DNA of 45,319 nt, taken from positions 1 through 45,319 of the forward strand of contig RZZR01000006.1 in assembly GCA_009929795.1 (NCBI GenBank), given 5' to 3'. Shown here piece after piece: positions 3,863 through 45,319 of the stretch (position 1 is its first letter; each line of letters begins with the position of its first letter). Below the pieces are notes generated by a model. It was not told the DNA's origin. It worked only from the letters and a program-made list of their open reading frames with translations, and did no database searches. Position numbers and translations under genes: made by a program. The DNA comes from Deltaproteobacteria bacterium. GTDB lineage: Bacteria > Desulfobacterota > Desulfovibrionia > Desulfovibrionales > Desulfomicrobiaceae.

Positions 3863-4942
3863 CTAGCTTACTGGAATCCGGGCCACCCGGACTCCGTCCT
3901 GAATAACGTCCAGATATTGGAACGGGCGTAGGACCCGTCTAGGCTGGGAGACCATGTTCTGTCCAGGACGATCCGAGGCGAAGACCCCCACGGCCTTCTG
4001 GTCTTCCGCTTCGGGAGCCGGTTGAGGATTGAGCATCTCGCCGAGTCGAAGCGTAACCCCTGAGTCCTGGCCGTCGCCACAGTTCAAATCCACCGGAACG
4101 GGATTCCCGAACCAATCCCGAATCCTGTCCAATTCGGTTTGCTCCAGATACACCTCAAGGCCCATGGACCGCAAAAAGGCCAAGGTCAGACGAACCTGGG
4201 CTCGGACCTTCCACTCCAGATCGACGATGTCCTTGCTGACCTCCACGGCCATAGCCGGTATTCCTCGCTGATTCACGGCATAAAAACTCAAGGACTTGCG
4301 CTGCTCCGGGTGGACCGAACCTGGATCGCTCGTTCGGGTATTCATCAAAGTGAACCGATAGTTCCGGGGCAGACTTTGATTAAAATCCGTCAAAACCGAC
4401 TCCACCAGACCGGCAAGATCGAATCCGTCGCAGCACACGGCTTGGTCGATGATCACCGATTGGCCGAATCGTTTCGGGCCTCGCAGCGCATTCTGATATA
4501 CTTGGCTGTAGAATCCGCTCCCCTCGTGGAGATGGATGAATGCGTCGGCCCTGGAGATCAAAAGACGGATGCATCGGGCCAGACGATCCTCGTAGAACTG
4601 GTTGTAGTCCTGATCGAACCTTCGGTTGAGATCGACGTTGATCTGCCTGGACCGAGCCATGATGGATGGGATGTTGGCCCTGGGGACGACGATGAGCTTG
4701 CCGTTCTCGAGCCGGGCCCGGGTCAGTATTTGGGCGCTGATGAACCCGGCCACCTCGTCCCCCTGGATCCCGCCTTGGACCATGACCGTTGGACCAGGGG
4801 CAATTCCCTCCAGAAAATGGACATTCAGGGGGTATTGGGTGTTGGCGAAAAAGGTGAAGTCCTGACCCCAAACCGGAGACCAGGTTACCAGGACCAGAAT
4901 CGCCAGACTAGCGCAGAATGCGTTCGACGGGAATGGTCTCAC
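3863..4942 (-). CDS. Csd4/Pgp1-like M99 family murein carboxypeptidase, ended early by TAG
   Basis: A predicted periplasmic metallo-carboxypeptidase of 359 residues with an N-terminal signal peptide (about 1-26, ending VWG before QDF). The zinc-site strand reads GGIQGDE at residues 57-63. The first ligand is therefore Gln60 with Glu63, and a later HLHEG (His139, or possibly His137) supplies the third. Glu234 in AVEVSKD is the likely catalytic Glu. A Gln in place of the usual M14 His is the hallmark reported for Helicobacter Csd4. Csd4 trims peptidoglycan tripeptides to dipeptides and is needed for helical shape. The frame ends at TAG (3863-3865) but continues open for 211 more codons. The GTG start overlaps the upstream gene by 35 bases. 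Assignment to this family is strong; the exact substrate is inferred. Confidence 0.8.
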   Translation of the reverse strand: MRPFPSNAFCASLAILVLVTWSPVWGQDFTFFANTQYPLNVHFLEGIAPGPTVMVQGGIQGDEVAGFISAQILTRARLENGKLIVVPRANIPSIMARSRQINVDLNRRFDQDYNQFYEDRLARCIRLLISRADAFIHLHEGSGFYSQVYQNALRGPKRFGQSVIIDQAVCCDGFDLAGLVESVLTDFNQSLPRNYRFTLMNTRTSDPGSVHPEQRKSLSFYAVNQRGIPAMAVEVSKDIVDLEWKVRAQVRLTLAFLRSMGLEVYLEQTELDRIRDWFGNPVPVDLNCGDGQDSGVTLRLGEMLNPQPAPEAEDQKAVGVFASDRPGQNMVSQPRRVLRPFQYLDVIQDGVRVARIPVS

Positions 4943-5621
4943 GGAAGAATACGGTTCCGCTGTCCCTGTCGCTCAGGGTCAGCCGGATGGCAAAGAGGTT
5001 CTGTTCCGGAATTTCGCCAGGGAGCTCGATGTTGAACTTGGTGTTCTTGAACTTCTGAATCTCGAACAACTTGTCCTTCAAGGTCTCCGACACGTCCGTC
5101 TCCTGGCCATGGATGTCGATCAGACTCAGGGAAACCAATCCCCTGAGGGTATCCGTGGCCGTCAGGTTGTTGATGTCGAAGCTTAACTGGAGGCGTCCAC
5201 CCTGAAGCCTGGTCTGGATGTTGGCCAGGCCAAGCTGGCCAGTGTCTGTCATAGAAAAGACGTCCCGCAAATCAAGTCGCGGTGGCGTTGAGGGCTCGGT
5301 CGATTGCTCGGCCTTGGACACGGCGTGGATCGTGGCCAACGAATCGCTCTCGGCCTCAGACTCAATGATCAGCTTCATATTCCTGAAACGTTGCAATTCA
5401 GTTTCCGTATGGGCCAGAAGACGCTTGTTCTCGACGTCCTCGGCCTTGAGGCGTACGTTTTCCTCCCACAGGGTGTAGCTCGCGTACAATCCGGCGGAGC
5501 CGGTCCCGACAAGGACGATCAGAAAATAGAGGAAAAACCTGAGCCAAGCCGGGTTCAGTCGATATCTCCGGACCGGGCTGTCGTCCCGCATGAACAGGAT
5601 GTTGTACTTAATATCAGCCAT
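4908..5621 (-). CDS. Membrane-anchored coiled-coil protein with periplasmic beta domain
   Basis: A 237-residue protein of unknown function. A short basic cytoplasmic N-terminus (about 1-26) is followed by one transmembrane helix (about 27-50). Next comes a heptad-like charged helix (about 52-85, with EENVRL and ETELQRF) and then a Ser/Thr/Pro linker. The C-terminal domain is predicted to be beta-rich (about 125-237) and should lie in the periplasm. The ATG at 5621 overlaps the stop of the L,D-transpeptidase-like gene by eight bases, and its 3' end overlaps the peptidase gene by 35 bases. This topology suits a scaffold tethering cell-wall enzymes at the inner membrane, but that role is inferred only from the two neighbours. 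Confidence 0.75.
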   Translation of the reverse strand: MADIKYNILFMRDDSPVRRYRLNPAWLRFFLYFLIVLVGTGSAGLYASYTLWEENVRLKAEDVENKRLLAHTETELQRFRNMKLIIESEAESDSLATIHAVSKAEQSTEPSTPPRLDLRDVFSMTDTGQLGLANIQTRLQGGRLQLSFDINNLTATDTLRGLVSLSLIDIHGQETDVSETLKDKLFEIQKFKNTKFNIELPGEIPEQNLFAIRLTLSDRDSGTVFFRETIPVERILR

Positions 5622-6909
5622 CGTCGATCTGCTCCCAATCTTCCTGGACAATTGTCCAATCCGTTCCTTCGGCGGCGGGCCTCAAAACGAGGGTCTTCAG
5701 CCCCTGGTCCCGGTATCCTGAACGAGATCGATAGGTCTGCTTGAACCGAACGACCCGATCCTGACCGGACTCGAACACCCTAAGCTCACTGATGGCCACT
5801 TCCATCGGACGATCGCCGGCAGCCCAAAGCTTCCGCCAATGATCCTCCAGGGCCTTCTTGCCCCTGACCTTTCCCCGGACGATGCGGTCGTGATACCGGC
5901 TCAGGTAGGCATCAAGACGTCCATCCTCCCAGGCCATTCGCCATTCCTCGATCCAAGGATGGACATCCTTGGCCTCCAGAATCCGAGGCTCCTCCAGCCT
6001 GATGTTCACATCGGCCTGGATGAACTCGGAACCGACGATGAGCCAGTCTCCTGAAAGCCCTTTTTCCCAGTACAATCGCTTCACGCCCTCTGAAACAAAT
6101 GACGCGGCCTCGTATCTCTGAAGAAAAAAGGTGACCATGTAGTCCGGCCCGGGCAGGCAGGACACGTCTTGAATCGTGACCCGAATCCATGGGTAGCGGG
6201 CGAACAGAGACCGTTTTCGCCTCTCGTAATGGGCCCATGTGGCGCCCTGGGTTTGAGCAAACTTGGCCTGATCGTAGAATTGAAAATAGCGGTCCGCTTT
6301 CGAGGCCCAGGCTTCGGCCCACGCCTGGGTTCTCTCCACCAGGACCTGGCATTCCTGGGCGCTCGAAGCGCCGTTAAGATCCACGGAATAGGCAATGATG
6401 GCCGGGGTCAACCCGAGGGACACCACAGGGTCGAGGATGCGAAGGTCCTGGTCGTTCAAGGCCACGCAGCCCCTGGTCTCCATGGGCTCGATGGGCTGTC
6501 CCCGGCCATGGATCCAGATTCCGTGTCCGGTCTTGCCCCTCAGCCTGTCGATGGGATTGGGGAAATTGAGGGTGAAGGCCATGGATCCGTACAGATTGTA
6601 GTCCAGGCCCCGTTTAAGAGTTCCGGTCAGGAAATAGACACCTTCAGGGGTCTTCAGGTCACCCTCGAAAAATTTGTCTCCGGGATTCTGGCCTGTGGCG
6701 CAGTCCAGACTCATGGCCACCGGAACCTTGGTCGATGGATTAAACTCCAGGAGATGAAACTTCTGACGACTCTTGTCCACGGCCACGAGCATCTTGGGAG
6801 GTGTACAAGAATTTGAAGGCAGACCAACCTTCCAGCCCTCGGCTTGGCAGATGCCGACCGAGAGACAAAGAGAGAAGCACAAAAAATAGAGAACCCTAAA
6901 CGCTTTCAT
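5614..6909 (-). CDS. L,D-transpeptidase-fold protein with NTF2-like C-terminus (Csd6/Pgp2-like)
   Basis: A predicted periplasmic cell-wall enzyme of 431 residues. The signal peptide (about 1-23) ends in a C-Q-A stretch. The YkuD catalytic domain spans about 38-170, with GHGIWIHG (His134) and the nucleophile motif TRGCVAL (Cys148). The remainder appears to hold two NTF2-like domains, about 185-300 and 320-430; each begins with a W-x-AW helix followed by Tyr-rich strands. Helicobacter Csd6 and Campylobacter Pgp2 combine a YkuD domain with an NTF2-like domain and act as L,D-carboxypeptidases in shape control, so this protein may trim rather than cross-link. The ATG at 6909 is chosen because it directly precedes the signal peptide; it overlaps the lipoprotein gene by 14 bases. 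Confidence 0.85.
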   Translation of the reverse strand: MKAFRVLYFLCFSLCLSVGICQAEGWKVGLPSNSCTPPKMLVAVDKSRQKFHLLEFNPSTKVPVAMSLDCATGQNPGDKFFEGDLKTPEGVYFLTGTLKRGLDYNLYGSMAFTLNFPNPIDRLRGKTGHGIWIHGRGQPIEPMETRGCVALNDQDLRILDPVVSLGLTPAIIAYSVDLNGASSAQECQVLVERTQAWAEAWASKADRYFQFYDQAKFAQTQGATWAHYERRKRSLFARYPWIRVTIQDVSCLPGPDYMVTFFLQRYEAASFVSEGVKRLYWEKGLSGDWLIVGSEFIQADVNIRLEEPRILEAKDVHPWIEEWRMAWEDGRLDAYLSRYHDRIVRGKVRGKKALEDHWRKLWAAGDRPMEVAISELRVFESGQDRVVRFKQTYRSRSGYRDQGLKTLVLRPAAEGTDWTIVQEDWEQIDDG

Positions 6910-7510
6910 TCCATTCAAAGACCAGTTGCCCAAGAGGGCCGGTTATGACCATATGCAGGGTATCTTCGGTCTGGACCGGAAATCGAACCCATAAAAACTT
7001 CTGCCATTGGGTGTAGTGAGGGATGAACCGCCGCAACTGCTGGGTATTCCAAGATGCGTCCCGAATTTCCAACGGGAAAATTTTCCGGCCCTGACCATCG
7101 AGCAGAAAAACCTTCCAGAGATCTCCGGCATATTCGATCTTCCTGTTTTCGGGAAATGACGACGACGTGGCGATCAGGATGTCGATCCCGGACTCGGCGG
7201 CTCGGCGCTGTTCGTCCAACAGATCGGCCTGCTCCCGGGACGTGAGCCGATACATTGCCGCCCTTCTCTGCACATAGGCCTCTCTCCAGGGCCACGAAGT
7301 CAGGGTGGCCCGGACTTTCAATTCCGTGTCCAGCCCCGAGTAGATGGCGTCCGTCCTGGTCCACTCTTCGGTGACCTGAAAGTAATCGTCATGAACCTCG
7401 GGCCACAGAGTCCTCTCCACTTCGTGCCAAGTGCAGGCCGACGAGAACAGGACCAGCAGTACCATAGCCGAAAGTGTTCTCGAGAAGTTCCTCTCAGCGG
7501 CCTCTGGCAA
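6896..7510 (-). CDS. Predicted lipoprotein of unknown function
   Basis: A 204-residue protein with a lipobox: a hydrophobic run followed by LFSSAC places the lipidated Cys at about residue 26. I chose the TTG at 7510 because it gives a normal n-region with basic residues before the hydrophobic core; the internal ATG would leave almost no n-region. This start overlaps pyrE by 17 bases. The mature part is alpha/beta, with many Trp and Arg residues and no family I recognise. Its place directly upstream of two predicted murein-trimming enzymes suggests an envelope role, perhaps outer-membrane attached, but no function can be read from the sequence. Confidence 0.7.
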   Translation of the reverse strand: MPEAAERNFSRTLSAMVLLVLFSSACTWHEVERTLWPEVHDDYFQVTEEWTRTDAIYSGLDTELKVRATLTSWPWREAYVQRRAAMYRLTSREQADLLDEQRRAAESGIDILIATSSSFPENRKIEYAGDLWKVFLLDGQGRKIFPLEIRDASWNTQQLRRFIPHYTQWQKFLWVRFPVQTEDTLHMVITGPLGQLVFEWNESV

Positions 7511-9987: not shown

Positions 9988-10107
9988 CTACTTGGTTTTT
10001 CCGGCCGTTTCCTTGGCTTCCTTGATGCGCTGTTTGATGCGTTTCATACGCCGATGCCTCTTGCGATCCAATTCCTTTTTCCGTTCGATCTTCTTATGCT
10101 TGGCCAT
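9988..10107 (-). CDS. Small basic protein of 39 residues
   Basis: A very short gene. It starts MAKHKK at the ATG 10107, with GGAGTG (10111-10116 on the complement) as ribosome-binding site four bases ahead. Nearly half the residues are Lys or Arg, and the rest are helix-formers, so the product is probably one highly positive helix that could bind RNA or ribosomes. The frame extends further upstream as an open stretch, but that part looks non-coding and has no ribosome-binding site. Function unknown. The next gene downstream is the zinc ribbon protein. Confidence 0.7.
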   Translation of the reverse strand: MAKHKKIERKKELDRKRHRRMKRIKQRIKEAKETAGKTK

Positions 10108-10181
10108 TGTCACTCCATGAATAATTTGAAAAAAAATGAATCTGGGCTTTAAGCCTTCAAAAAAAATGTGCCCTATGTCCC

Positions 10182-11297
10182 TTAGCCGAGTCGTGTCAAG
10201 TGATAATTCCGCATGCCCAACCCCAGGGACTGGGCATGGGCCAGGGCATGATCTCCATGGATGTCTGGCCGCAGGGCCTTGAACTTGTCTTCTCCTTGAT
10301 GAATTCCCTGCGGCAAGCGCCCTCCCGGCAACGGCAAGGCCTCGTTGACCAAATCGAGGGAGGCCTGATCCACGGCCACCGGATCCAACCCGGCCAAAAT
10401 CCCTATATCCGGACACAAAGGGGCATCGGAATATCCGGCACAATCACAGTCGGGGGTCACATTCATGACAAAATTGAGATACAAACAAGGTCTTGCAAAT
10501 GAGGCCGTCACCGCTCCGGCATATTCGACCATCCGCTCGATGAAATCGGGCCCTTGACCACTCCAGTCGAGTCCCAAGGCATGGTGTCGGCAGGCCGTGA
10601 CGCAGGCTCCGCACCCGACGCAAAGACTTTGATCCATCCAGACCAAGCCTCCCTCAAGCCTCAGAGCACCATGCCGACATCGAACAATGCACAGCCCGCA
10701 CCCGTTGCACCGGGCCTGGTCCAGAGTCGGGCCCATCCGGCAATGCTGGTCGATCTTTCCCTTTTTAGAAGCACATCCCATGCCAAGGTTCTTGAGCGCA
10801 CCCCCGAACCCGGCGATCTCGTGGCCTTTGAAATGTGATAGGCAAACCAGGGCTTCGGCCTCGACAATAGCCCCGGCCAGATGAAAGGCCTCAAAATGCC
10901 CTCCGGGTCCTGAAACCCGACACTCGAATTCTCCGCGCAGTCCGTCGGCGATGATTACCGGGGCTCCCAGTCGTAGGGCCTCGAACCCGTGAGCGGCGGC
11001 CAGAAGCAGATGGGAAACAGCTTCGGCCCGTTCTCCCGGGTACAGAGTATTCGTATCGGTCAGAAACGGACGACATCCGGCCTTGGCCAACAGGGAGACA
11101 ACAGGAGCGACCAGCATTGGATTGATGAAGCTGGTGCCTCCTCTTTCTCCGAAATGGATTTTTAGAGCCAAGGAGAGGTCGGGAGCCAGATGGGCGAGAA
11201 ATCCCGTGGACTTGACCAGGGCGCGAACGCGCGTTGCGAAGGGGGCCTTTCTCGAAGCCCGCAGAGGCCAAAGAAAGACTCGGGACTTGGCCTGCAT
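10182..11297 (-). CDS. DUF362 family protein with two 4Fe-4S clusters
   Basis: A 371-residue protein with the DUF362 fold in its N-terminal two thirds: KIHFGERG near residue 46, LSHFKGHEIAGFGGALKN near 153-170, and a CASKKGK motif. A ferredoxin insert follows with two cluster motifs, CNGCGLCIVRC and CVGCGACVTAC (about 198-238). Such proteins are common in strict anaerobes and are presumed iron-sulfur redox or assembly factors, without a proven reaction. The ATG is two bases after the RNase J stop, with no clear ribosome-binding site of its own, which suggests translation coupled to RNase J. Confidence 0.85.
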   Translation of the reverse strand: MQAKSRVFLWPLRASRKAPFATRVRALVKSTGFLAHLAPDLSLALKIHFGERGGTSFINPMLVAPVVSLLAKAGCRPFLTDTNTLYPGERAEAVSHLLLAAAHGFEALRLGAPVIIADGLRGEFECRVSGPGGHFEAFHLAGAIVEAEALVCLSHFKGHEIAGFGGALKNLGMGCASKKGKIDQHCRMGPTLDQARCNGCGLCIVRCRHGALRLEGGLVWMDQSLCVGCGACVTACRHHALGLDWSGQGPDFIERMVEYAGAVTASFARPCLYLNFVMNVTPDCDCAGYSDAPLCPDIGILAGLDPVAVDQASLDLVNEALPLPGGRLPQGIHQGEDKFKALRPDIHGDHALAHAQSLGLGMRNYHLTRLG

Positions 11298-11299
11298 GT

Positions 11300-12952
11300 T
11301 CAGACGGACATTATCAGAGGAACGATGACCGGATCCCGGTCGAGGACCTTCCTGAAATACCGTCGCAAGGAACCTCGGATCCGCTCCTTAATCTTCTTGG
11401 TCGAAGAGGCCGGCACGTTCTCCAGGATGTCGAGGACGATCTCCTTGGCGTCATCCAGCACATGAGAAAGCTGCTGTTCGAAGATGAAGCCCTTGGACAG
11501 AATGTTCGGCCCGAGCAGGATCTGATTCGTGCTCTGTTCGGTCAGCAGAAGGACGATGACCAAGCCCTCTCCACCCAAAATCTGCCGCTCCTTAAGAACC
11601 GTCAGTCCGACGTCCCCGACCCCCTTGCCATCGACATTGACCTTCTCGGCGTTGACCTCCGAATCAAATCGGACCCCTCCCGAGGAGTCGAACGTCAGAG
11701 GCTGACCGTTCTCGATGATCAATGCCCGTTCCGGGGCCACCCCGCACTCCCTGGCCAGTGCGGCATGTTTGAAGAGGTGTCGGTACTCTCCGTGGACTGG
11801 GATGAAGAACTTTGGACGAACACATTCAAGCATCGTCCTCAATTCCTCGCGATGGGCATGGCCCGAAGCGTGAATGGCCTGGACCTTCTTGTAGAGGACC
11901 TCGGCCCCTCGGCGGTAGAGGTCGTTGATGACTCGGGTGATGGCCTTGGTGTTTCCTGGGATGAACCTGGAGGACATGAGCACGAGATCGTTTTTCTTGA
12001 TGGACAGATGCCGGTGTTCGCCTCTGGCCAGTCGGCTTAATGCCGAAAGAGGCTCTCCCTGCGATCCCGTCAAAAGCAAGACGACCTTCTCGTCCTTGTG
12101 CTCGTGCAGGTTTTCCAGGGGACACCATGTGTCGTCGGAATAGTTCACCAAACCCAATTTTTTTGCGATCTCCAGGTTCGAGGCAATGCTCCGGCCATCC
12201 ACGGCCACCTTGCGACCGAACATCTCGGCCAACTCAAAGACCTCCTGCATCCGCTGGATGTGGCTCGAAAAGAGGGTGATCAGAATCCGACCCTGAGCCG
12301 CCGCGAAAATATCCTTGAGCGATTCCATGATCTCACGCTCGGTCAAGGCGTGCCCCTCGCGGTCGATGTTAGTCGAATCCGACAGCAACAGGAGCGCCCC
12401 GGGTTCGGAAAAAGCGGCAAAGGCCTCCATGTCCGTGGCGTGCCCGCCCATGGGCTGTCGGTCGATCTTGAAATCTCCGCTATGCACGATTCGGCCCACC
12501 GGAGTCTCGATGCCCAGTCCGAAGCCCTGAATGATCGAATGGCACACAGGAATGAAGGTCACGCTCAAACTCCCGAGATCGGCCCGCTCTCCTCCCCTGA
12601 CGACCTGAGGATGGAATCGTTCCAGAAGTCCGTGTTCCTCAAGTTTCTTCCGGACCAGACCCAGGGTGAACTCGGACCCCATGACCGGAGCTTCGACATG
12701 GGGCAACAGCCAGGGCATGGCTCCTATATGATCCTCGTGACCGTGAGTGAGGACAATAGCCTTGAGTTTGTCCTTCCGCTCCACGACATAGTCCATTCTG
12801 GGGATGACCACGTCGATCCCCAGAAGGTAGTCGTCCGGAAACATCAGCCCACAGTCGACCAACACCATGCTGTCCCGGGTCTCGAAGGCCATGCAGTTCA
12901 TTCCGATTTCGCCCAGACCGCCCAGAGGGGTGATGGTCAGTGTGTCCGGCAT
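11300..12952 (-). CDS. rnj: Ribonuclease J
   Basis: A beta-CASP metallo-beta-lactamase RNase with 5'-3' exonuclease and endonuclease activity in mRNA decay and rRNA maturation. The 550-residue length is normal. The zinc motif HGHEDHIG starts at residue 70. PVCHSI near 137 and LLSDSTN near 190 supply further ligands. The beta-CASP region includes LLTGSQGEP near 290, and a C-terminal SGHA(H) motif near 365 precedes IPVHGEY. The start has an AAGGAGA site nine bases upstream. RNase J in a Gram-negative background fits Desulfobacterota-like lineages. A promoter candidate lies just upstream. Confidence 0.94.
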   Translation of the reverse strand: MPDTLTITPLGGLGEIGMNCMAFETRDSMVLVDCGLMFPDDYLLGIDVVIPRMDYVVERKDKLKAIVLTHGHEDHIGAMPWLLPHVEAPVMGSEFTLGLVRKKLEEHGLLERFHPQVVRGGERADLGSLSVTFIPVCHSIIQGFGLGIETPVGRIVHSGDFKIDRQPMGGHATDMEAFAAFSEPGALLLLSDSTNIDREGHALTEREIMESLKDIFAAAQGRILITLFSSHIQRMQEVFELAEMFGRKVAVDGRSIASNLEIAKKLGLVNYSDDTWCPLENLHEHKDEKVVLLLTGSQGEPLSALSRLARGEHRHLSIKKNDLVLMSSRFIPGNTKAITRVINDLYRRGAEVLYKKVQAIHASGHAHREELRTMLECVRPKFFIPVHGEYRHLFKHAALARECGVAPERALIIENGQPLTFDSSGGVRFDSEVNAEKVNVDGKGVGDVGLTVLKERQILGGEGLVIVLLLTEQSTNQILLGPNILSKGFIFEQQLSHVLDDAKEIVLDILENVPASSTKKIKERIRGSLRRYFRKVLDRDPVIVPLIMSV

Positions 12953-12997
12953 GTGAGAACTCTCCTTGTCAGTGTCTGAATCGCCTTGGATGATTGC

Positions 12998-13026
12998 ATC
13001 ATAGTTTCAACCAGCCCGATTTTCAG
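12998..13026 (-). promoter_or_regulatory. Candidate sigma-70 promoter for the RNase J operon
   Basis: On the complement, CTGAAA (13021-13026) and TATGAT (12998-13003) are separated by 17 bases. The -10 box matches the consensus at five of six positions and the -35 at four of six. It lies about 45 bases before the RNase J start and just downstream of the EF-G-like gene's terminator, where a new transcript would be expected. Confidence 0.45.
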
Positions 13027-15392: not shown

Positions 15393-16355
15393 ATGAATGA
15401 CCCGTTTCTCCTGGCTTCCGAGATCCTGGCCGACCGGCCATGGATTCTCTGGCCCGGGCAGCCAGAGGCTCCCCTTCTCCGCAGCGTGACCCGGTTCGGC
15501 GTCCTCTCCCCGGTGGACGTCGAAGAAACCGAAGACGGGATTGTGCTCCTGGCAGGCTACCGTCGCCTGCATGCCATCGGCCCGCATGCCCGAATTCCAG
15601 TCCGCTTTCTGCCCCCAACCAACCCGGTTCAGCGGGCCATCTATTATGTCGCCACCAATACCGGTCAAGCCTGGGACGCCTGGCGTCTCGTCCGCCTGGC
15701 CAGGATGGCCATCCGGCCGGAGTACTCAGGGCTGGCCGCCGAGGCTCTGCCCCTTCTTGATCTTCATGAAAAAGCCCGCCCTTGGATTCAGGCCCTGGCC
15801 TGGACCGCACTGCCTGAAGCCTGGGACGAACGTCTGCTCTTCAACGCACTAGGCCTTGAATGTGGCACGTACTTGACCCGCTTCGACGAGGCCGATCGGC
15901 TTCGTTTGGTTCCCCTCTTCCAAAATTTGTGTTGGGGCCGCAACGGTTCCCTGGCCCTGATTGAAAAGCTTTATGAGTGCTCGAGACGAAATGCTTCGGG
16001 ACTGGCCGAAGTGCTGGTCGATCTCGATACGCATCGCGTTTTAAATTCCGACCTCTCTCCCAAGGACAAAATTAATTATATTCTCGAGATGTTGCGCCGG
16101 CTCAGGCACCCGGTGCTCCACGCCTTGCGAACCGAACAGGAGACTCTCTTTTCCGAATTTTGTCGGGAGACGAGCTGGTCCGTATCTCGCCCGGACCAGT
16201 TCGAAACAAACAAGACAACCTTCTCGGTCACCGTCTGCTCCGGCCAGGAAGTTCAAGAGGCCGCTCAGACACTCTTCAAGGCCGCGGTCATTCTCGACCG
16301 AGACCGTCCACACCCATCACAGGATGCCAAGGTATGCCGTCCAAAAAATTTGTGA
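15393..16355 (+). CDS. ParB-like nuclease-domain protein
   Basis: A 320-residue protein. Residues about 30-75 match the ParB/sulfiredoxin-type N-terminal fold: an LLRSVTRFGVLSPV helix-strand followed by LLAGYRRLHA, equivalent to the GxRR nucleotide-contact motif. The remainder is helical and has no recognisable DNA-binding HTH of classical ParB, nor a parA neighbour. It is therefore an orphan and not a chromosome-partition ParB. ATG 15393 is preferred over 15372 because AGGACG lies at a suitable distance before it. The end overlaps the acyltransferase gene by 22 bases. Confidence 0.7.
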   Translation: MNDPFLLASEILADRPWILWPGQPEAPLLRSVTRFGVLSPVDVEETEDGIVLLAGYRRLHAIGPHARIPVRFLPPTNPVQRAIYYVATNTGQAWDAWRLVRLARMAIRPEYSGLAAEALPLLDLHEKARPWIQALAWTALPEAWDERLLFNALGLECGTYLTRFDEADRLRLVPLFQNLCWGRNGSLALIEKLYECSRRNASGLAEVLVDLDTHRVLNSDLSPKDKINYILEMLRRLRHPVLHALRTEQETLFSEFCRETSWSVSRPDQFETNKTTFSVTVCSGQEVQEAAQTLFKAAVILDRDRPHPSQDAKVCRPKNL

Positions 16356-17125
16356 CCACCGGTTTCTACCGAACTGAAAAACAGACCGTCCCTTTTCCAG
16401 TCCAAATCTGGCCGACACCCTTTTTCTACGCGCGTGTGTACGGAGTTGTCCGGCGGGCCTCGGCCCTGGCCCGAGCCGGCCGCTACAAAGACCCGGAATG
16501 GGCGGCCTCCAGCGGCTCGATAGTCGACGCCCTGGAGTCCGTGGGCGGAACCGTGTCCGTCGACAACCTCTTCGCCTTCCGGAATGCCGGAGGCCCCTGC
16601 GTCGTCGTCGCCAACCACATGAGCACTCTGGAAACCTTCCTTCTGGCCTTTTTTCTCTGTCCCTTTGGACCGGTGACCTTTGTGGTCAAAGAGGCCCTGC
16701 TGGACTATCCCCTGTTCGGGCCGGTCATGAGAAGCCGCGATCCCATTGTCGTCGGACGACAAAATCCCCGCCATGACCTACAGGCCGTGCTGGAAGATGG
16801 CTGCGACCGTTTGTCCCAAGGCATTTCGGTCATCGTCTTTCCCCAAACCACCCGTTCGGCAGTGTTCGACCCGGCCAGATTCAACTCCATCGGAGTCAAA
16901 CTGGCCCGAAAAGGATCGGTCCCGGTCGTGCCTCTGGCCCTCAAGACCGATGCCTGGGGAACAGGAAGACTGATCAAGGACTTCGGCCCCATCAGGCCCG
17001 AGATTCCGACCATGTTTGAATTTGCCGATCCCATGCCCATCAAGGGCCCCGGCAAGGAGGAACAGGCCCGTATCGTCGAATTCATCGCCACCCGCCTGGC
17101 CGTCTGGTTGAACGCTCAATCCTGA
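16334..17125 (+). CDS. Lysophospholipid acyltransferase (PlsC-like), variant motifs
   Basis: A 263-residue membrane-associated acyltransferase of the 1-acylglycerol-3-phosphate acyltransferase superfamily. Motif I is NHMSTLE (His95 to Glu100), so the catalytic HX4D is HX4E. Motif III is FPQTTRS (169-175) where FPEGTRS is usual, and VPVVPLAL (about 196-203) is motif IV. Because several motif positions differ in a coherent way, this looks like a distinct subfamily rather than a dead enzyme, but the acyl acceptor is unknown. The start is inside the end of the ParB-like gene, so the two are co-translated. Confidence 0.75.
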   Translation: MPSKKFVTTGFYRTEKQTVPFPVQIWPTPFFYARVYGVVRRASALARAGRYKDPEWAASSGSIVDALESVGGTVSVDNLFAFRNAGGPCVVVANHMSTLETFLLAFFLCPFGPVTFVVKEALLDYPLFGPVMRSRDPIVVGRQNPRHDLQAVLEDGCDRLSQGISVIVFPQTTRSAVFDPARFNSIGVKLARKGSVPVVPLALKTDAWGTGRLIKDFGPIRPEIPTMFEFADPMPIKGPGKEEQARIVEFIATRLAVWLNAQS

Positions 17126-17243: not shown

Positions 17244-18122
17244 ATGATTCGTTTGACCATGTTCGCCGTGATGGCCCTTTTCACCCTGTGCACCGTCCTT
17301 CCCGTCCAGGCCGCCGATTTGCCGCGGGTGATGATCGTTGGCGAGGATGACGATCCCGACACCATCCCCCGTGATTCGAGAGTCTTCAAACGTGTCCTGG
17401 AATCCATCTCCAATCAACTGATTGACGAAGGGTTCACCGTCAAGGACGAGACGGCCATGACCGTCGGCACCCACGTCCAGGGACGGGTTAGAAGAGCGGA
17501 TGCCGAAGTCATCCAGATCGGCAGGGATGTCGGTGTGGACACCTTGGTCATCTTCTCGATCTATCCCAACGCCAAGGTCAATCAGAACAGCGTCCGGGTC
17601 ACGGCCCGAGTCACCGGCCGCATCCTCGGAACCTACACCGGAGATAGGATGGGCAGCTTTGAAGCTGAGCCCCAGGCCTACCAGCTCGTTCCAAGCCCGT
17701 ATTCCCGCAATGACATCCTTGAGGCTGTTGGCAAGTTGGCCAAAACCATCGGCCAGGAAGTTGGAGCGGTTCTCGCCGAACGCCTGGCCGGATACGCCGA
17801 CCAGCCCGGCGGCCAGCTTCTGGAATGGGTTCTGGTCTTCGATGGATTCACCGATTCCGACATGCGGGAAATCGAAGACATCCTGGTCATCTTCTCCGGC
17901 TACGACAGCCATCGTCCCAAGCCCAACGCCGTCAACACCTCAACCCACCACGAGTACATCTATTCCTCGTCCATCGACTCGGCCAAACTGAGAAGCAACA
18001 TGAACAAGATGCTCGACAAGTTGAACATGAAGGGTCGAATCTCCATGGCCGGGAACGAAGTCCAGGTCGTTAAGACGACTGGGGTCAAGCAACGCAAGCA
18101 GCAAAGTCAAAGCGAGTGGTAG
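17244..18122 (+). CDS. Periplasmic protein, short paralogue of the next gene
   Basis: A 292-residue protein with a signal peptide (about 1-23, ending VQA before AD). There is no family I can name with confidence. The mature part has a Rossmann-like start (PRVMIVGED), a central region (TLVIFSI) and a C-terminal region (EWVLVFDGF through DILVIFSGYD). All three line up with corresponding segments of the next protein: RILVLGTD, LITFSL, and YLITFYDF through LTVLSGF. AAGGAGG at 17232-17238 lies five bases before the ATG. The end is a Gln/Lys-rich tail. It was probably formed by duplication. Envelope location is well supported; function unknown. Confidence 0.78.
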   Translation: MIRLTMFAVMALFTLCTVLPVQAADLPRVMIVGEDDDPDTIPRDSRVFKRVLESISNQLIDEGFTVKDETAMTVGTHVQGRVRRADAEVIQIGRDVGVDTLVIFSIYPNAKVNQNSVRVTARVTGRILGTYTGDRMGSFEAEPQAYQLVPSPYSRNDILEAVGKLAKTIGQEVGAVLAERLAGYADQPGGQLLEWVLVFDGFTDSDMREIEDILVIFSGYDSHRPKPNAVNTSTHHEYIYSSSIDSAKLRSNMNKMLDKLNMKGRISMAGNEVQVVKTTGVKQRKQQSQSEW

Positions 18123-18125
18123 CCT

Positions 18126-18157
18126 GATTGGGCTCCGGCCGTAGTCGGAGCCCAATC
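18126..18157 (+). repeat. Perfect 12-bp inverted repeat between the tandem paralogues
   Basis: GATTGGGCTCCG (18126-18137) and its exact reverse complement (18146-18157) flank an eight-base loop. No T-run follows, so this is not a standard terminator. It sits four bases after one stop codon and ends 13 bases before the next gene's ribosome-binding site. It could stabilise or process the shared mRNA, or reduce expression of the second gene. Confidence 0.75.
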
Positions 18158-18181
18158 TCCATGACCGCACAAGGAGAAGCC

Positions 18182-19309
18182 ATGAAAGGAACCGGCATTG
18201 TATCCGGACTGCTGACGGTCTTGCTCGTGCTGTTCTGCTCGACGACCGTCTCCGCCCAATCAGTGGAGGCCACTGGCGTCGGCGTCGATCGCGACCATGC
18301 TCTGAACAACGCCTTGCAGCTCGCCGTGGAATCGGCCATCGGCGTTCTGGTCGACAGTGGAACCCTGGTCGAGAACTTCACGGTGGTCAAAGACGAAATC
18401 GTGACCCACTCCGTCGGCTACGTTGAGAGCTACAAAATCCTGACCGAAAAACCCGAACCCGATGGCGGCCATTCGGTGACCATCAGCGCCCTGGTCAACA
18501 GTGGACGCATTTCCGACGACATGACCAGCCTCGACGTTCTGATGAAAATGGCCGGGCACCCGAGGATTCTCGTGCTAGGCACCGACACCGAACTGACCTC
18601 CATTCCGACCGGCACTCAGGTCTTCCAGACCCTGGTCGAGGATGTGAAGCGGGTCTTTCGGGAGAAGTTCCGATTCGAGGTCATCGATTGGGACACGGTC
18701 CGCCAGGCCCATAAAAACCTCCCCGGCAAGCTGACCAAAGAGCGGGCCCTCAAGCACAACGACGTCATTCGAGCGGACAACCTGATCACCTTTTCCCTGG
18801 AGTATGCCTCGGCCCAGGCCAATCCGGCCCCTGTGGACATGACCATGTCCGCCATCCGCATATCCGATGACTTCATGATCAAGTCAGTCACCCAGAGGAT
18901 AGGCTCGGTGTCATCCGGGGGGCTGACCGCCCCGGAGAAGGATCGCAGAGCCATCGCCCTAGCCGGGGAACATATCTTTTCCCTGGCTGTTCAGACCGCC
19001 AGGGCAGTGGTGGAGGACCTGCAGGGTGAGGTCGAGCGGGGCAAGGGCTTCCGATACCTGATCACCTTCTACGATTTCCCCGATGCCAAAGCGCTGGAAG
19101 ACCAGTTGACCGTCCTCAGTGGCTTCGTCCGCTATTCGGTCGAAAAATCGACTCCTACCACTCTTGAGCTGTCCTACTGGTCAAACCTTCGAGAAAGCGC
19201 ACTCCTGGAAAGGGTCCAAAAACTCATCGAAGAACGTGGTCACAAGTACAAGTTCAAGCAGGAAGGTCGTGCTCTGAGATTCAAATGGGAGCACCCTGAA
19301 GGCTTCTGA
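18182..19309 (+). CDS. Periplasmic protein with FlgT-like N-terminal domain
   Basis: A 375-residue secreted protein with a signal peptide (about 1-25, ending VSA before Q). Residues about 28-105 resemble the N-terminal domain of flagellar assembly protein FlgT: a VEATG start, an alternating ALNNALQLAVESAIGVLV helix, then SVGYVESYKIL and a beta strand. The rest is paralogous to the preceding protein, so this gene equals that protein plus the extra domain. AAGGAG lies five bases before ATG 18182; an earlier TTG at 18128 would run through the hairpin. Flagellar-motor association is only suggested by the FlgT-like domain. A terminator follows. Confidence 0.75.
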   Translation: MKGTGIVSGLLTVLLVLFCSTTVSAQSVEATGVGVDRDHALNNALQLAVESAIGVLVDSGTLVENFTVVKDEIVTHSVGYVESYKILTEKPEPDGGHSVTISALVNSGRISDDMTSLDVLMKMAGHPRILVLGTDTELTSIPTGTQVFQTLVEDVKRVFREKFRFEVIDWDTVRQAHKNLPGKLTKERALKHNDVIRADNLITFSLEYASAQANPAPVDMTMSAIRISDDFMIKSVTQRIGSVSSGGLTAPEKDRRAIALAGEHIFSLAVQTARAVVEDLQGEVERGKGFRYLITFYDFPDAKALEDQLTVLSGFVRYSVEKSTPTTLELSYWSNLRESALLERVQKLIEERGHKYKFKQEGRALRFKWEHPEGF

Positions 19310-19335: not shown

Positions 19336-19377
19336 ACGGCCCTGGGTCCGAACGGTTCCCGGGGCCGTCTGTTTTCT
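19336..19377 (+). terminator. Rho-independent terminator after the tandem paralogues
   Basis: An eleven-base-pair stem (19336-19346 with 19358-19368, one T·G pair, otherwise ACGGCCC/GGGCCGT and GGG/CCC) with an eleven-base loop, followed by a TTTTCTT run. It begins 26 bases after the stop codon. Confidence 0.85.
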
Positions 19378-19489
19378 TGTCCTTCTCGCTCATGGTTCGT
19401 CCGCTTCAATCCACAGACCAGCTCCGGGCAGGCAATGACGACCTGACCCCTTTCCGCTCCACTCTCTCCCTCAGTCAAGAGGAACAGGC

Positions 19490-19963
19490 ATGAAGCATGT
19501 GGTCCACATTTCAGACATGAAAATCTCCAAGAACCCGAGGGATGTTCTCGTCACCCATTCCCTGGGTTCTTGCCTGGGTCTTGCTGCCTACGACCCGGAG
19601 GTCCGCGTGGGGGCTCTCATTCATTGCCTTCTTCCCAATCACTCCGGGAACCCAAAAGCCCGCGAGAACCCATACATGTTCGTCAGCAGTGGCGTGCCGG
19701 CCATGATCCGCAAAATGTACGACTACGGCGCTGAAAAGCAAAGAATCATCCTCAAAGCCGCCGGATGCGGCCGGATGCTGAACATCACCAACCAGTTCGA
19801 CACCGGGGAAAAGAATTTCTCCACCCTCCTGAAGCTCCTTGAAGTGAACGACATGCCTTTGGCCGCCCGGGATGTCGGCGGCAGCAGACCGAGGACCGTT
19901 GTTCTGCACCTTGAAAACGGACGAGTCGTGATCCGCTCCAGAAAAGAGGAGAGCGATCTATGA
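19490..19963 (+). CDS. cheD: Chemoreceptor glutamine deamidase CheD
   Basis: Deamidates glutamines of chemotaxis receptors and may interact with CheC. The 157-residue length is normal. The catalytic triad can be read as Thr22, Cys28 (in LGSC) and His45 (in GALIHCLLP), one residue offset from the triad known for Thermotoga CheD. AAGAGGAA lies before the ATG. It overlaps the HDOD gene by four bases (ATGA). No other che genes are in the window, so this pair is separate from the main chemotaxis cluster. Confidence 0.9.
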   Translation: MKHVVHISDMKISKNPRDVLVTHSLGSCLGLAAYDPEVRVGALIHCLLPNHSGNPKARENPYMFVSSGVPAMIRKMYDYGAEKQRIILKAAGCGRMLNITNQFDTGEKNFSTLLKLLEVNDMPLAARDVGGSRPRTVVLHLENGRVVIRSRKEESDL

Positions 19964-20820
19964 TAAAACGGAAAATAATTCTGGCCAGGATCAAACGGAT
20001 CGAGGACCTGCCTTCCAGCGTCGGCAAGGCCCTCAAGACCATGAACGACCCCGATGTCGACATGGGCCAGTTGACCAGCGTACTCGAGCGGGATCCGGCC
20101 ATCACGGCCAACATCTTGCGGTTGGCCAACTCGGCCTACTTCGGGGCGACCCACAAGATCGCCTCCCTCCGGGACGCCGTTGTCCGCCTCGGATCCAAGC
20201 AGCTCTTCCAGCTCATGCTTACCGTGGCCGTGGCCCCCCGTATGTCCCCGGCCGTCTCCGGGTACGATATGCCGGCCTGCGCCCTGCTCGAGCAGTCCCT
20301 GGCCGTCGCGGTGGCCTCGGAACTCTCGGCCGCTACCCTCGACATCCAGGCTCCTCCCCATACCTTCACAGCCGGTCTCCTGGCCAACATCGGCAAAATC
20401 GTCCTTGGCCAATTCCTGGAGGTCAGCGGTCAGGAAATCGTCTCCTTGGCTGAGGAACGGGAAATCCCATTCGACCAGGCCGAGCGGGAGATCCTCGGCA
20501 TCGACCACCTTGAGGTCGGCGCCGAACTGCTCAGGAACTGGTCCATCCCCGAAGAAATTGTCCAAGTGGTTAGATACCGGCTCCAGCCCGATCTTCTCCC
20601 GTCCCGGAATCTTGCCTTGGATCTCGTCCATGTCGGAGACGCCATCACCAGGATGACCGGTATCGGCCAGGGATTCGACGGTATGCACTACCCGATTTCC
20701 GGGCAGGTGATCGAGCGTCTGGGCATGAATTCCAGGCATGTCGAACAAATTATGAGCCTGCTCGTCGACCGGGTCGAGGAGTTGCAGCGGCTTCTGCCCA
20801 AGTGCGAGGGGGATATCTGA
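19960..20820 (+). CDS. HDOD domain protein
   Basis: A 286-residue cytoplasmic signalling protein made almost wholly of one HDOD domain (about 10-210): LPSSVGKAL, then DPAITANILRLANSAYFG and the AVVRLGSKQL helix are the family's landmarks. HDOD proteins are HD-domain relatives that usually lack a complete metal site and act in signalling. In FTAGLLANIGKIV the usual HD pair is not present, so enzymatic activity is unlikely. It starts within the cheD stop codon, so the two products are probably made in a fixed ratio and may act on the same chemosensory system. Confidence 0.9.
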   Translation: MIKRKIILARIKRIEDLPSSVGKALKTMNDPDVDMGQLTSVLERDPAITANILRLANSAYFGATHKIASLRDAVVRLGSKQLFQLMLTVAVAPRMSPAVSGYDMPACALLEQSLAVAVASELSAATLDIQAPPHTFTAGLLANIGKIVLGQFLEVSGQEIVSLAEEREIPFDQAEREILGIDHLEVGAELLRNWSIPEEIVQVVRYRLQPDLLPSRNLALDLVHVGDAITRMTGIGQGFDGMHYPISGQVIERLGMNSRHVEQIMSLLVDRVEELQRLLPKCEGDI

Positions 20821-44278: not shown

Positions 44279-44692
44279 CTATCTGTAGGCTGAGGCCCCA
44301 AGACTCGTGGTTTTGGCCACTTCCGGGCTCTGGACGACGATCTCAGCAAAGGCTGAACGGACTCCCTTGAGCACGTCGATAACCTTGTCAATAAGTTCCT
44401 GGTCCATCTGAAGGTTGGCCTTCAAGAGCTGTGTGCTGCAAAAAAAGTACATTTTGTGAAGGTTCTCGGCCACATCTCCCCCCCTTTCAAGATTGAGGGA
44501 GCCATCCAGCTCGGCGATGATGTCTAAAGCCTTGGAGATCAGGATTCCCTTTTGGGCGTAGTCCTTTTCGGCCATTTTCTTTTTGGCCTGCTGCAGAAAC
44601 TTGATGGCCCCGTCATAGAGCATGACCACCAGGCTCCCTGGCGTGGTCGTGGTCACCGAAGTCTGGAAGTAGGCTCGCGCCGCTTGATTCAT
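44279..44692 (-). CDS. fliS: Flagellar export chaperone FliS
   Basis: Binds the flagellin C-terminus in the cytoplasm and prevents early polymerisation. At 137 residues it has the family pattern: AYFQTSVTTTTPGSLVVMLYDGAIKFL (about 7-33 in two motifs, Y-x-x-x-x-v-x-t-s/t-p and LYDG), then the AL-x-I-I-x-EL-x-x-SL helix around residues 55-68. GGGAGGA lies before the ATG. It follows fliD by 78 bases, the usual fliD-fliS order. Confidence 0.95.
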   Translation of the reverse strand: MNQAARAYFQTSVTTTTPGSLVVMLYDGAIKFLQQAKKKMAEKDYAQKGILISKALDIIAELDGSLNLERGGDVAENLHKMYFFCSTQLLKANLQMDQELIDKVIDVLKGVRSAFAEIVVQSPEVAKTTSLGASAYR

Positions 44693-44770
44693 CGTCTTCC
44701 TCCCCGATCATCCTCTGTCATTGTATTTCTACCCGCTTCCATACCGTTCACATTCCGGTCTTTTGTGCTG

Positions 44771-45319
44771 CTACGTCTTGACGTTCAGCTGTTTGATCTG
44801 GCTTTCGAGCTGACTCTTGAGATCGTCGTAGTATCCGAGCATTGACTCGAGATTGGCGAACCGATTGCGCAGATCTCGTTCGTATCTGGAGAGTCTGGCT
44901 GCCTCGTACTCAAGCTTTTTGTCGATGCTGGCGATGATGTCCAGATAGTTCTCTTCCAGAATGTTCAGGGTGCCTTCTTCGGCGTCTGTCAGAATTTTCA
45001 GCTCATCCACCATCTCCTTGGCCTTGCCGCTTTTCAGCCGAATTTCCCCGCTGTAACTGCCGGGAGTGAGATTGTTGACCTTCAGGGCCAAGCCCTTGGC
45101 CGGTCCTTCCATGGCCGTGATCACATACTCTCCGGATTCCATCGACACCGAGGCCGCGTAGCCGCCGATAGAGGCGTTGGTCACCGGTGGGCTCCCCGTG
45201 CCTACATCGTAGGTCACTTCGTACACCCCGGCCTTGGTGATGCCCGTGATGGCCGAGTAGTACCTGAAGTCCGTCGAATTCCAGGCCGGCAAAAGATTGG
45301 CACCGAAGACCTCGGACAC
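44771..45319 (-). CDS. fliD: Flagellar filament cap protein FliD (C-terminal part)
   Basis: The last 182 residues of FliD (HAP2), cut by the window edge. The visible part has a beta domain, then a long C-terminal coiled coil: SRYERDLRNRFANLESMLG and a Gln/Leu-rich helix ending QIKQLNVKT. This is the family's D0-D1 C-terminal pattern that packs against the filament tip. FliS directly downstream confirms the call. The start lies to the right of the window. Confidence 0.85.
   Translation of the reverse strand: MSEVFGANLLPAWNSTDFRYYSAITGITKAGVYEVTYDVGTGSPPVTNASIGGYAASVSMESGEYVITAMEGPAKGLALKVNNLTPGSYSGEIRLKSGKAKEMVDELKILTDAEEGTLNILEENYLDIIASIDKKLEYEAARLSRYERDLRNRFANLESMLGYYDDLKSQLESQIKQLNVKT

Follow-up and report, generated by a model that had tools for sequence, protein, structure and literature searches.

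Among the closest described counterparts of the genes considered here is FlgT of Vibrio, a periplasmic protein that makes up the H ring together with the outer-membrane lipoproteins FlgO and FlgP; flgT mutants are described as having no ring and mostly periplasmic flagella (PMC7990780, PMC6375700). Another periplasmic ring is that of PelC, whose 12 subunits lie upon an outer-membrane barrel (PMC12141448). In this study, we analysed a stretch of 45,319 nucleotides (hereafter the window; contig RZZR01000006.1 of assembly GCA_009929795.1, Deltaproteobacteria bacterium, Desulfomicrobiaceae) and, within it, two adjacent genes, p1 and p2, that are predicted to encode secreted periplasmic proteins. 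With a probability that we put at about 0.5, p1 and p2 are periplasmic subunits with a FlgT/CsgG fold in an outer-membrane/peptidoglycan complex other than the flagellum, for which we infer a ring form, a substrate and a placing at the outer membrane. The literature searched yielded no description of the p1-p2 pair in print, and nothing that brought FlgT, FlgO and FlgP together with Desulfovibrio.

Like FlgT (3w1e; LPHT ring, 8z5n), p2 is a predicted periplasmic protein in which a FlgT_N-type domain is followed by a TolB-N/CsgG-like middle domain, and the operon partners of p1 and p2 in relatives include LPP20-like and CsgG-like proteins, the protein classes of FlgP and FlgO. Unlike FlgT, p2 ends in a ferredoxin-like domain that it has in common with p1, a protein that has no N-domain; no flagellar linkage of the pair was found, and its partners include SLH/TPR, SpoIID, amidase and YhdP-like proteins. 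The CsgG/PelC/GNA1162-like lipoproteins have the middle-domain fold of p2, and in some relatives a lipoprotein that reads as CsgG-like belongs to the p1-p2 operon, whereas p1 and p2, read by eye, are without a lipobox and carry extra domains. Two pairs found elsewhere in the order, in other families (L038 and L041), likewise place a FlgT_N protein over the Pfam cut-off beside lipoproteins, although the C-terminal parts of these proteins show poor alignment with p2 and none of the listed p1 matches is in their genomes (G031 and G037). Outer-membrane tethers of the OmpM/SlpA type are described as carrying SLH on an envelope protein, whereas here SLH is found on a TPR lipoprotein that lies close to SpoIID genes and, in the genome of the window, to amidase genes as well.

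Relationship and domain architecture of p1 and p2

By BLASTP, p1 and p2 share 20% identity across 260 positions (E 1e-9). The mature pair scored 44.3 bits, against a maximum of 25.0 bits in 1000 shuffles of p2, and the next match of p1 after p2 among the 42 gene calls of the window reached 26.2 bits (E 0.025). Profile-profile comparison of the two families gave a probability of 95.9% (E 5.9e-9). When the profiles were split by domain, middle matched middle (E 6e-7) and C-terminal matched C-terminal (E 1e-5), while three cross-domain comparisons produced no match (E 0.04 to 0.4). On these sequence comparisons p1 and p2 are paralogues over two domains, the middle and the C-terminal one, and the order of the domains is shown as well. 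An earlier note, made from the letters alone, had read the two genes as tandem paralogues, the second repeating the segment order of the first, and both statements are borne out: PRVMIVGEDDD/PRILVLGTDTE, LVIFSI/LITFSL and LVIFSGY/LTVLSGF align in order, starting at residues 29 (VMIVGED), 101 and 214 of p1 and at residues 129 (ILVLGTD), 201 and 309 of p2 counted from the ATG at 18182. The LV-strand that the note placed near the start of both proteins lies there in mature p1 only; in p2 it follows the extra domain.

Signal-like segments were recognised by eye at both N-termini, ending in AxA as VQA/AD in p1 and VSA/QS in p2. No lipobox was seen by eye ahead of C16 of p1 or C19 of p2, and no cysteine is invariant in either family alignment. 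The C-terminal domain of p1 has the order beta-alpha-beta-beta-alpha-beta-beta, with a final W that is invariant in 7 aligned members. Against Pfam (p1 best PA4575, E 0.14), NCBIfam (p1 best infA, E 0.067) and PHROGs (for p2, two families of unknown function, E 0.17 and 0.26), neither protein gave anything over the cut-off, and neither matched PADLOC. Sequence searches of the PDB found no relative of p2 alone (best UDP-GlcNAc carboxyvinyltransferase, E 0.17) or of the p1 family (best PH0734, E 0.074).

The extra N-terminal domain of p2, its first ~95 mature residues, had been called FlgT-like, and this is supported mainly through homologues. A Pfam scan for FlgT_N covered a sample of 61 genomes; the 14 control genomes of that scan gave no match. 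In the sample FlgT_N exceeded the cut-off at 8 places, and p2 matched 7 of these (G031, G036, G037, G041, G043, G062 and G064; E 1.6e-10 to 6.3e-21) but not the eighth, in G039; re-scanning of two of the seven matched proteins gave FlgT_N over the cut-off in both. Within the p2 family itself, FlgT_N was matched by 4 of 8 members with E<=1, the best at 3.7e-4, and a profile built from p2 and its FlgT_N-type relatives gave weak PDB matches to FlgT (9yec, E 0.19) and to a lipoprotein (9hmf, E 0.02).

Fold searches with an AlphaFold model of p2 agree with this assignment. The best Foldseek matches were the LPHT ring chain 8z5n (E 1.9e-9) and FlgT 3w1e (E 5.6e-9). VIA aligned the model with 3w1e at Z 10.9 and a root-mean-square deviation (rmsd) of 9.2 over 210 residues (model 26-282), and with 8z5n at Z 10.7 over 141 residues (model 61-293). 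Over p2 residues ~125-280 the best Z was 10.6 for TolB, 10.6 for HpaA and 10.5 for CsgG; it was 9.2 for PelC, 9.0 for LpoB and 8.3 for GNA1162. The alignment to FlgT stops at residue 282, short of the C-terminal domain, and residues 286-375 match eL22-like ribosomal ferredoxin folds at Z ~8, the level of common arrangements. As modelled, the middle domain is clear in its fold class; the rmsd of 9.2 together with a template modelling (TM) score of ~0.3 shows that the domains are either placed differently or poorly modelled, and it is mainly sequence that identifies the N-domain with FlgT. Thus the FlgT-like domain of the earlier note stands, through homologues over the FlgT_N cut-off and the model fold, with a negative direct Pfam scan. 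For p2 as a whole the fold comes from a moderate model, and for p1 it would follow from the paralogy with p2.

Several of these results weigh against a FlgT-type reading. Pfam gave no FlgT_N match in a direct scan of the window's p2 or anywhere in the window's genome, and the p2-family profile did not find FlgT among PDB sequences (best lysozyme, E 0.86). The p2 model, built from 5 sequences, is of moderate quality (predicted local distance difference test, pLDDT, 71; predicted TM score, pTM, 0.57), with pLDDT <50 at residues 54-78 in the N-domain and at 114-125. Its third Foldseek match, 3nrb, is an apparently unrelated enzyme (E 2.8e-5), its TM-scores to FlgT are low (0.29-0.31), and VIA did not separate FlgT from TolB, HpaA or CsgG. 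The p1 model reached a pLDDT of 47, exceeding 50 mainly at residues 190-280, and gave no Foldseek match at E<=0.001; the matches it did give (top ribosomal proteins, E 0.03) were discarded, the model being too weak for the middle domain.

Operons in relatives and the partners of p1 and p2

In relatives, p1 and p2 lie at the head of two recurrent kinds of operon, which we named A and B. A gene was called a lipoprotein gene when its start was lipobox-like by eye; CsgG-like and FlgT_N-like in operon A are sequence readings, and Pfam gives no CsgG or FlgT_N family for its members. Operon B comprises p1, p2, an SLH/TPR lipoprotein, an LPP20-like protein, a YhdP-like protein, a TPR lipoprotein and SpoIID with TPR; in Pfam, SLH was over the cut-off, SpoIID gave E 1.7e-26 and the YhdP-like protein 26.4 bits (cut-off 46). 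It was found, whole or cut at the end of the locus, in L035, L036, L049, L052, L053, L072, L079, L080 and L081, with L049 and L053, whose contigs are equal in length, counted as one. Operon A comprises p1, p2, lipoproteins X and Y, a CsgG-like/TPR lipoprotein and a FlgT_N-like protein, and was found in L032/L051 and L033/L050 (each pair being one contig) and in L046, where p2 is cut at the contig end and p1 was not seen. In L072-L075 the layout of operon A occurs with p1 and without p2, and in L072 operons A and B stand divergently side by side. In that locus (genome G155, 10104-12998) two divergent p1 copies are each first in a different lipoprotein operon, as if one module had been duplicated and specialised. 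A further p1/p2 pair, in L037, is divergently arranged and has other neighbours. Outside the p1-bearing loci, FlgT_N proteins over the cut-off lie beside a DUF6340/TPR lipoprotein (L038, 7318-9666) and beside a row of lipoprotein-like genes (L041, 3565-10845), and no flagellar gene was recognised by eye near either.

The window's genome (G000; 3.17 Mb, 407 contigs, 96% complete) carries a comparable set of genes away from p1 and p2. On contig C42, genes for SpoIID with TPR, Amidase_3 with TPR, an LPP20-like protein, the SLH/TPR lipoprotein, a protein of no recognised family and FecR lie together on one strand, and contig C78 has a GNA1162-like lipoprotein with an LPP20-like gene. The label LPP20-like in operon B was given via a relative in this genome (BLAST E 1e-10).

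We examined the co-occurrence of p1 with the SLH/TPR lipoprotein in 245 genomes (51 genera) of the order; the p2 search used a sample of 247, and the 245-genome draws were taken as identical. The SLH/TPR profile matched 96 genomes, of which 37 were counted as full-length at E<=1e-50 and 59 dropped (E 1.5e-7 to 1e-3), the best matches of the latter covering part of the profile, mostly its TPR stretch. The 37 genomes included all 18 of those with p1 and 19 of the 227 without it (p=2e-17); by genus, the figures were 4/4 with p1 and 9/47 without (p=0.003). Owing to kinship, the choice of gene and the origin of the profile, the informative genera are g1, to which the window belongs, g44 and g48, in each of which the lipoprotein is encoded on a contig other than that of p1 (C42 in G000, C44 in G201 and C56 in G227). 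One genome of genus g28, G108 (99% complete), has fliG and is not among the p2, p1 or SLH/TPR matches. The CsgG-like lipoprotein of operon A was found in 10/245 genomes, namely 9 of the 18 with p1 and, in addition, G018.

These data have their own counterweights. The cut-off of E<=1e-50 was drawn with the gap between 3e-52 and 1.5e-7 already in view; the value of 2e-17 is inflated by kinship, 15 of the 18 p1 genomes belonging to one genus; the SLH/TPR protein was chosen as a neighbour of p2 in operon B; and p1-bearing genomes supply 3 of the 4 rows of its profile. In operon B itself Pfam detects no LPP20, and the LPP20-like relative in the window's genome (L078) scores 21.7 bits against a cut-off of 25.9; among the lipoproteins neighbouring p1-p2 in relatives, there was no FlgO or LPP20 Pfam match. 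The CsgG-like lipoprotein of operon A was not found in the window's genome. In the window, the p1-p2 pair stands alone beside cheD-HDOD, with fliS and a fliD-like fragment ~25 kb away, and a p1 relative in Methylobacterium (described below) has a different gene context.

Operon membership in relatives, together with co-occurrence across the order sample, suggests that p1 and p2 may be add-on subunits of an envelope module outside the flagellum, a module of lipoproteins (CsgG-like, TPR and SLH), LPP20-like proteins and cell-wall proteins (SpoIID and Amidase_3). In such a module the middle domains of p1 and p2 would stack as a periplasmic collar or ring below an outer-membrane lipoprotein ring, in the manner of FlgT with FlgO and FlgP. 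The N-domain of p2 would dock this collar onto the LPP20/CsgG-like proteins, the SLH/TPR lipoprotein would tie the complex to peptidoglycan, and SpoIID and the amidase could open or remodel the wall at the complex. The whole may be an outer-membrane portal or a scaffold between outer membrane and wall; the YhdP-like neighbour and the CsgG-like lipoprotein favour a trans-envelope conduit, and the SLH protein favours a tether.

The same partners and folds admit two other explanations. In one, p1 and p2 would serve a port of the CsgG/PelC type for the export of exopolysaccharide or protein, their middle domains forming a periplasmic ring that gates the channel. The matches of the middle domain to CsgG, PelC, HpaA and GNA1162 fit this, as do the CsgG-like lipoprotein read in operon A, the TPR lipoprotein and YhdP-like protein of operon B, and the PelC precedent of a 12-subunit ring on a TPR-bearing barrel (PMC12141448). 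We regard it as unlikely: inspection of the operons by eye brought up no outer-membrane barrel, glycosyltransferase or exported substrate, p1 and p2 lack a recognisable lipobox, and the fold is common to proteins of quite different roles. In the other, the pair would act in outer-membrane lipid or outer-membrane/peptidoglycan homeostasis without ring or export, as a TolB/LpoB-like adaptor that activates SpoIID or the amidase. The SLH, SpoIID, YhdP-like and Amidase_3 partners would suit such a role, and TolB (tied with FlgT) and LpoB are among the fold matches; we nevertheless hold it to be distinctly unlikely, as in Foldseek FlgT and the LPHT chain lead the next match by four orders of magnitude and the FlgT/LPHT alignments span nearly the whole of p2, if with poor rmsd.

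To return to the envelope complex that we prefer, its boldest form would be a flagellum-independent machine of the FlgO/FlgP/FlgT type in Desulfovibrionales, with a ring of LPP20/CsgG-like lipoproteins, a p1-p2 collar, an AsmA/YhdP-like bridge, an SLH anchor and SpoIID/amidase hole-makers of its own; this we offer as a tentative and rather doubtful extension. If true, flagella would have recruited one version of a general portal or scaffold of the envelope as their H ring. If rings form, the origin of the H ring in sodium-driven motors becomes testable as a pre-existing outer-membrane scaffold recruited by flagella. The present analysis gives an unannotated pair a predicted domain architecture and a candidate set of partners, and places FlgT-type domains in conserved envelope operons for which a flagellar linkage was not found.

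Distribution of p1 and p2 and the flagellar question

In the order sample, p1 is present in 18/245 genomes and 4/51 genera, and 15 of the 18 genomes belong to genus g28; in a sample of 297 genomes of the phylum, the window's own genome is the only one with p1. Matches to p2 (E<=0.001) were found in 50/247 genomes, many of them covering the N-domain only. Full-length p2 relatives occur in g1, g28, g44 and g48, with one more in g3 (G018) that starts at a contig end. A search of contigs with p2 alone found no relative, the p1 alignment found four loci, and p2 was not found in phages or plasmids. Among 72,556 plasmid records, a p1 relative occurs on one, pMaq22A_2p of Methylobacterium aquaticum (L065, 14926-15876; 33% identity, E 1e-34). 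It lies beside and downstream of genes of the OmpA family and for a serine protease, and 7 kb upstream of it is a caspase-family gene. On this alphaproteobacterial plasmid p1 is thus found without p2.

The earlier note had suggested that the pair may belong to a flagellar basal structure or to an outer-membrane structure not yet named, and had named the lack of a link with flagella in genome co-occurrence as a ground for refutation. With fliG (FliG_N) as marker, 220/245 genomes were positive, comprising 18/18 with p1 and 202/227 without it; the association has p=0.13 when counted by genome and p=0.78 when counted by genus, and with fliG near universal such a test has little power. No enrichment was seen; 18 of the 220 genomes with fliG carry p1, which tracks the TPR/SLH lipoprotein instead. 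The flagellar half of the suggestion finds no support in this weak test, whereas its other half, an outer-membrane structure not yet named, agrees with the operons seen in relatives. MotY_N was found in 0/245 genomes and in none of 14 control genomes, and is thus uninformative.

In 7 of the 18 p1 genomes p1 and fliG share a contig, at distances of 161-1333 kb; in 10 they lie on different contigs, and in 1 there is no fliG row to compare. In relatives, the surroundings of p1-p2, as far as these were read (parts of L074 and L079-L081 lay outside the reading), contained no gene recognisable as flagellar by eye. In the window, flgO and flgP were not seen beside p1-p2, whose neighbours are an acyltransferase gene and cheD-HDOD. 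In G018 (77% complete) p2 is present and fliG was not found.

It is improbable, in our view, that the motor of Desulfovibrionales includes p1 and p2 as an H-ring-like or basal-disk component in which p2 would be the analogue of FlgT. The FlgT order of N and M domains in the p2 fold, the presence of fliG in all p1 genomes, cheD next door and the fliS gene and fliD-like fragment of the window all speak for such a role. In addition, true FlgT is missing from many flagellated species and was reported in none of 13 dual-proton-stator species (PMC6375700), and flgT of Aeromonas lies outside the polar flagellum regions (PMC4960245). Because true FlgT is thus patchy, and off-cluster in Aeromonas, both the rarity of p1-p2 and its distance from fliG are compatible with a flagellar role. 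On the other side stand the 202 genomes with fliG and without p1, the distances between p1 and fliG, the neighbourhoods in which no flagellar gene was recognised, G108 (fliG without a p1 or p2 match), G018 and the SLH, SpoIID and YhdP-like genes of the operons.

The p1-p2 locus and its surroundings in the window

The features of the locus are listed in Table 1.

Table 1. Features of the p1-p2 locus, in window coordinates
Feature	Position	Strand	Description
p1	17244..18122	+	Open reading frame, 292 amino acids; predicted secreted periplasmic protein
p1 parts			Signal-like N-terminus (by eye), CsgG/TolB-N-type middle domain (via p2 paralogy), C-terminal domain
p2	18182..19309	+	Open reading frame from probable start ATG 18182, 375 amino acids; predicted secreted periplasmic protein
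p2 as listed	18128..19309	+	393 amino acids counted from TTG
p2 domains			FlgT_N-type ~25-118; FlgT_M/CsgG/TolB-N-type middle ~125-282; ferredoxin-like C-terminal ~286-375 (alignment, AlphaFold model, fold searches)
Upstream in-frame extension of p2	18128..18181	+	From TTG; first bases inside the intercistronic hairpin
Intercistronic RNA hairpin p1/p2	18126..18157	+	14-bp stem, no T-run; z -4.1, 0/200 shuffles as stable
Terminator-like hairpin 3' of p2	19336..19379	+	T-rich tail; z -4.6, 0/200 shuffles as stable
CheD	19490..19963	+	Pfam CheD, E 7.7e-23; downstream neighbour
HDOD-domain protein	19960..20820	+	Pfam HDOD, E 1.6e-47; adjoins CheD
Acyltransferase-family protein	16160..17125	+	Pfam Acyltransferase, E 1.4e-14; upstream

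Read by eye, AAGGAGG precedes the ATG of p1 and AAGGAG lies just upstream of ATG 18182. The latter motif and the signal-like N-terminus that follows make ATG 18182 the likelier start of p2, and the in-frame extension ahead of it is probably not translated. The N-termini of p2 homologues also fall near this ATG in the alignment, which was itself built from that start. The hairpin between the two genes possibly sets unequal expression of both. Within the hairpin after p2, the inner stem (19352-19368) is one of 2 terminator sites listed, and shuffles of the region average 2.5. With this hairpin splitting them from cheD-HDOD, p1 and p2 look like a two-gene unit.

The CheD of the window has matches in 12/21 other genomes of the family, the best at 29% identity, and its closest relative is a second CheD of the same genome, on contig C84 (32%). 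A link between p1-p2 and cheD was considered and dropped, since no cheD was recognised in the p1-p2 neighbourhoods of relatives read by eye. In L045, a FlgT_N-like locus without p1, a CheD-like gene was seen by eye 2.3 kb off. On the other side of the pair, the acyltransferase frame is listed from a TTG and its true start is probably later; it is a neighbour without known link to p1-p2. A further gene upstream reads as ParB-like by eye, and Pfam gave it no match over the cut-off.

Near the right end of the window (44279-45319, minus strand), FliS is over the Pfam cut-off and is accompanied by a C-terminal fragment of FliD, which scores 23.1 bits against a cut-off of 25.4 and runs off the window end. 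At 3863-6933 on the minus strand, a Peptidase_M99 carboxypeptidase lies near a YkuD L,D-transpeptidase with a Cds6_C domain; according to Pfam, Peptidase_M99 controls helical cell shape, and this region looks like a peptidoglycan cluster for cell shape.

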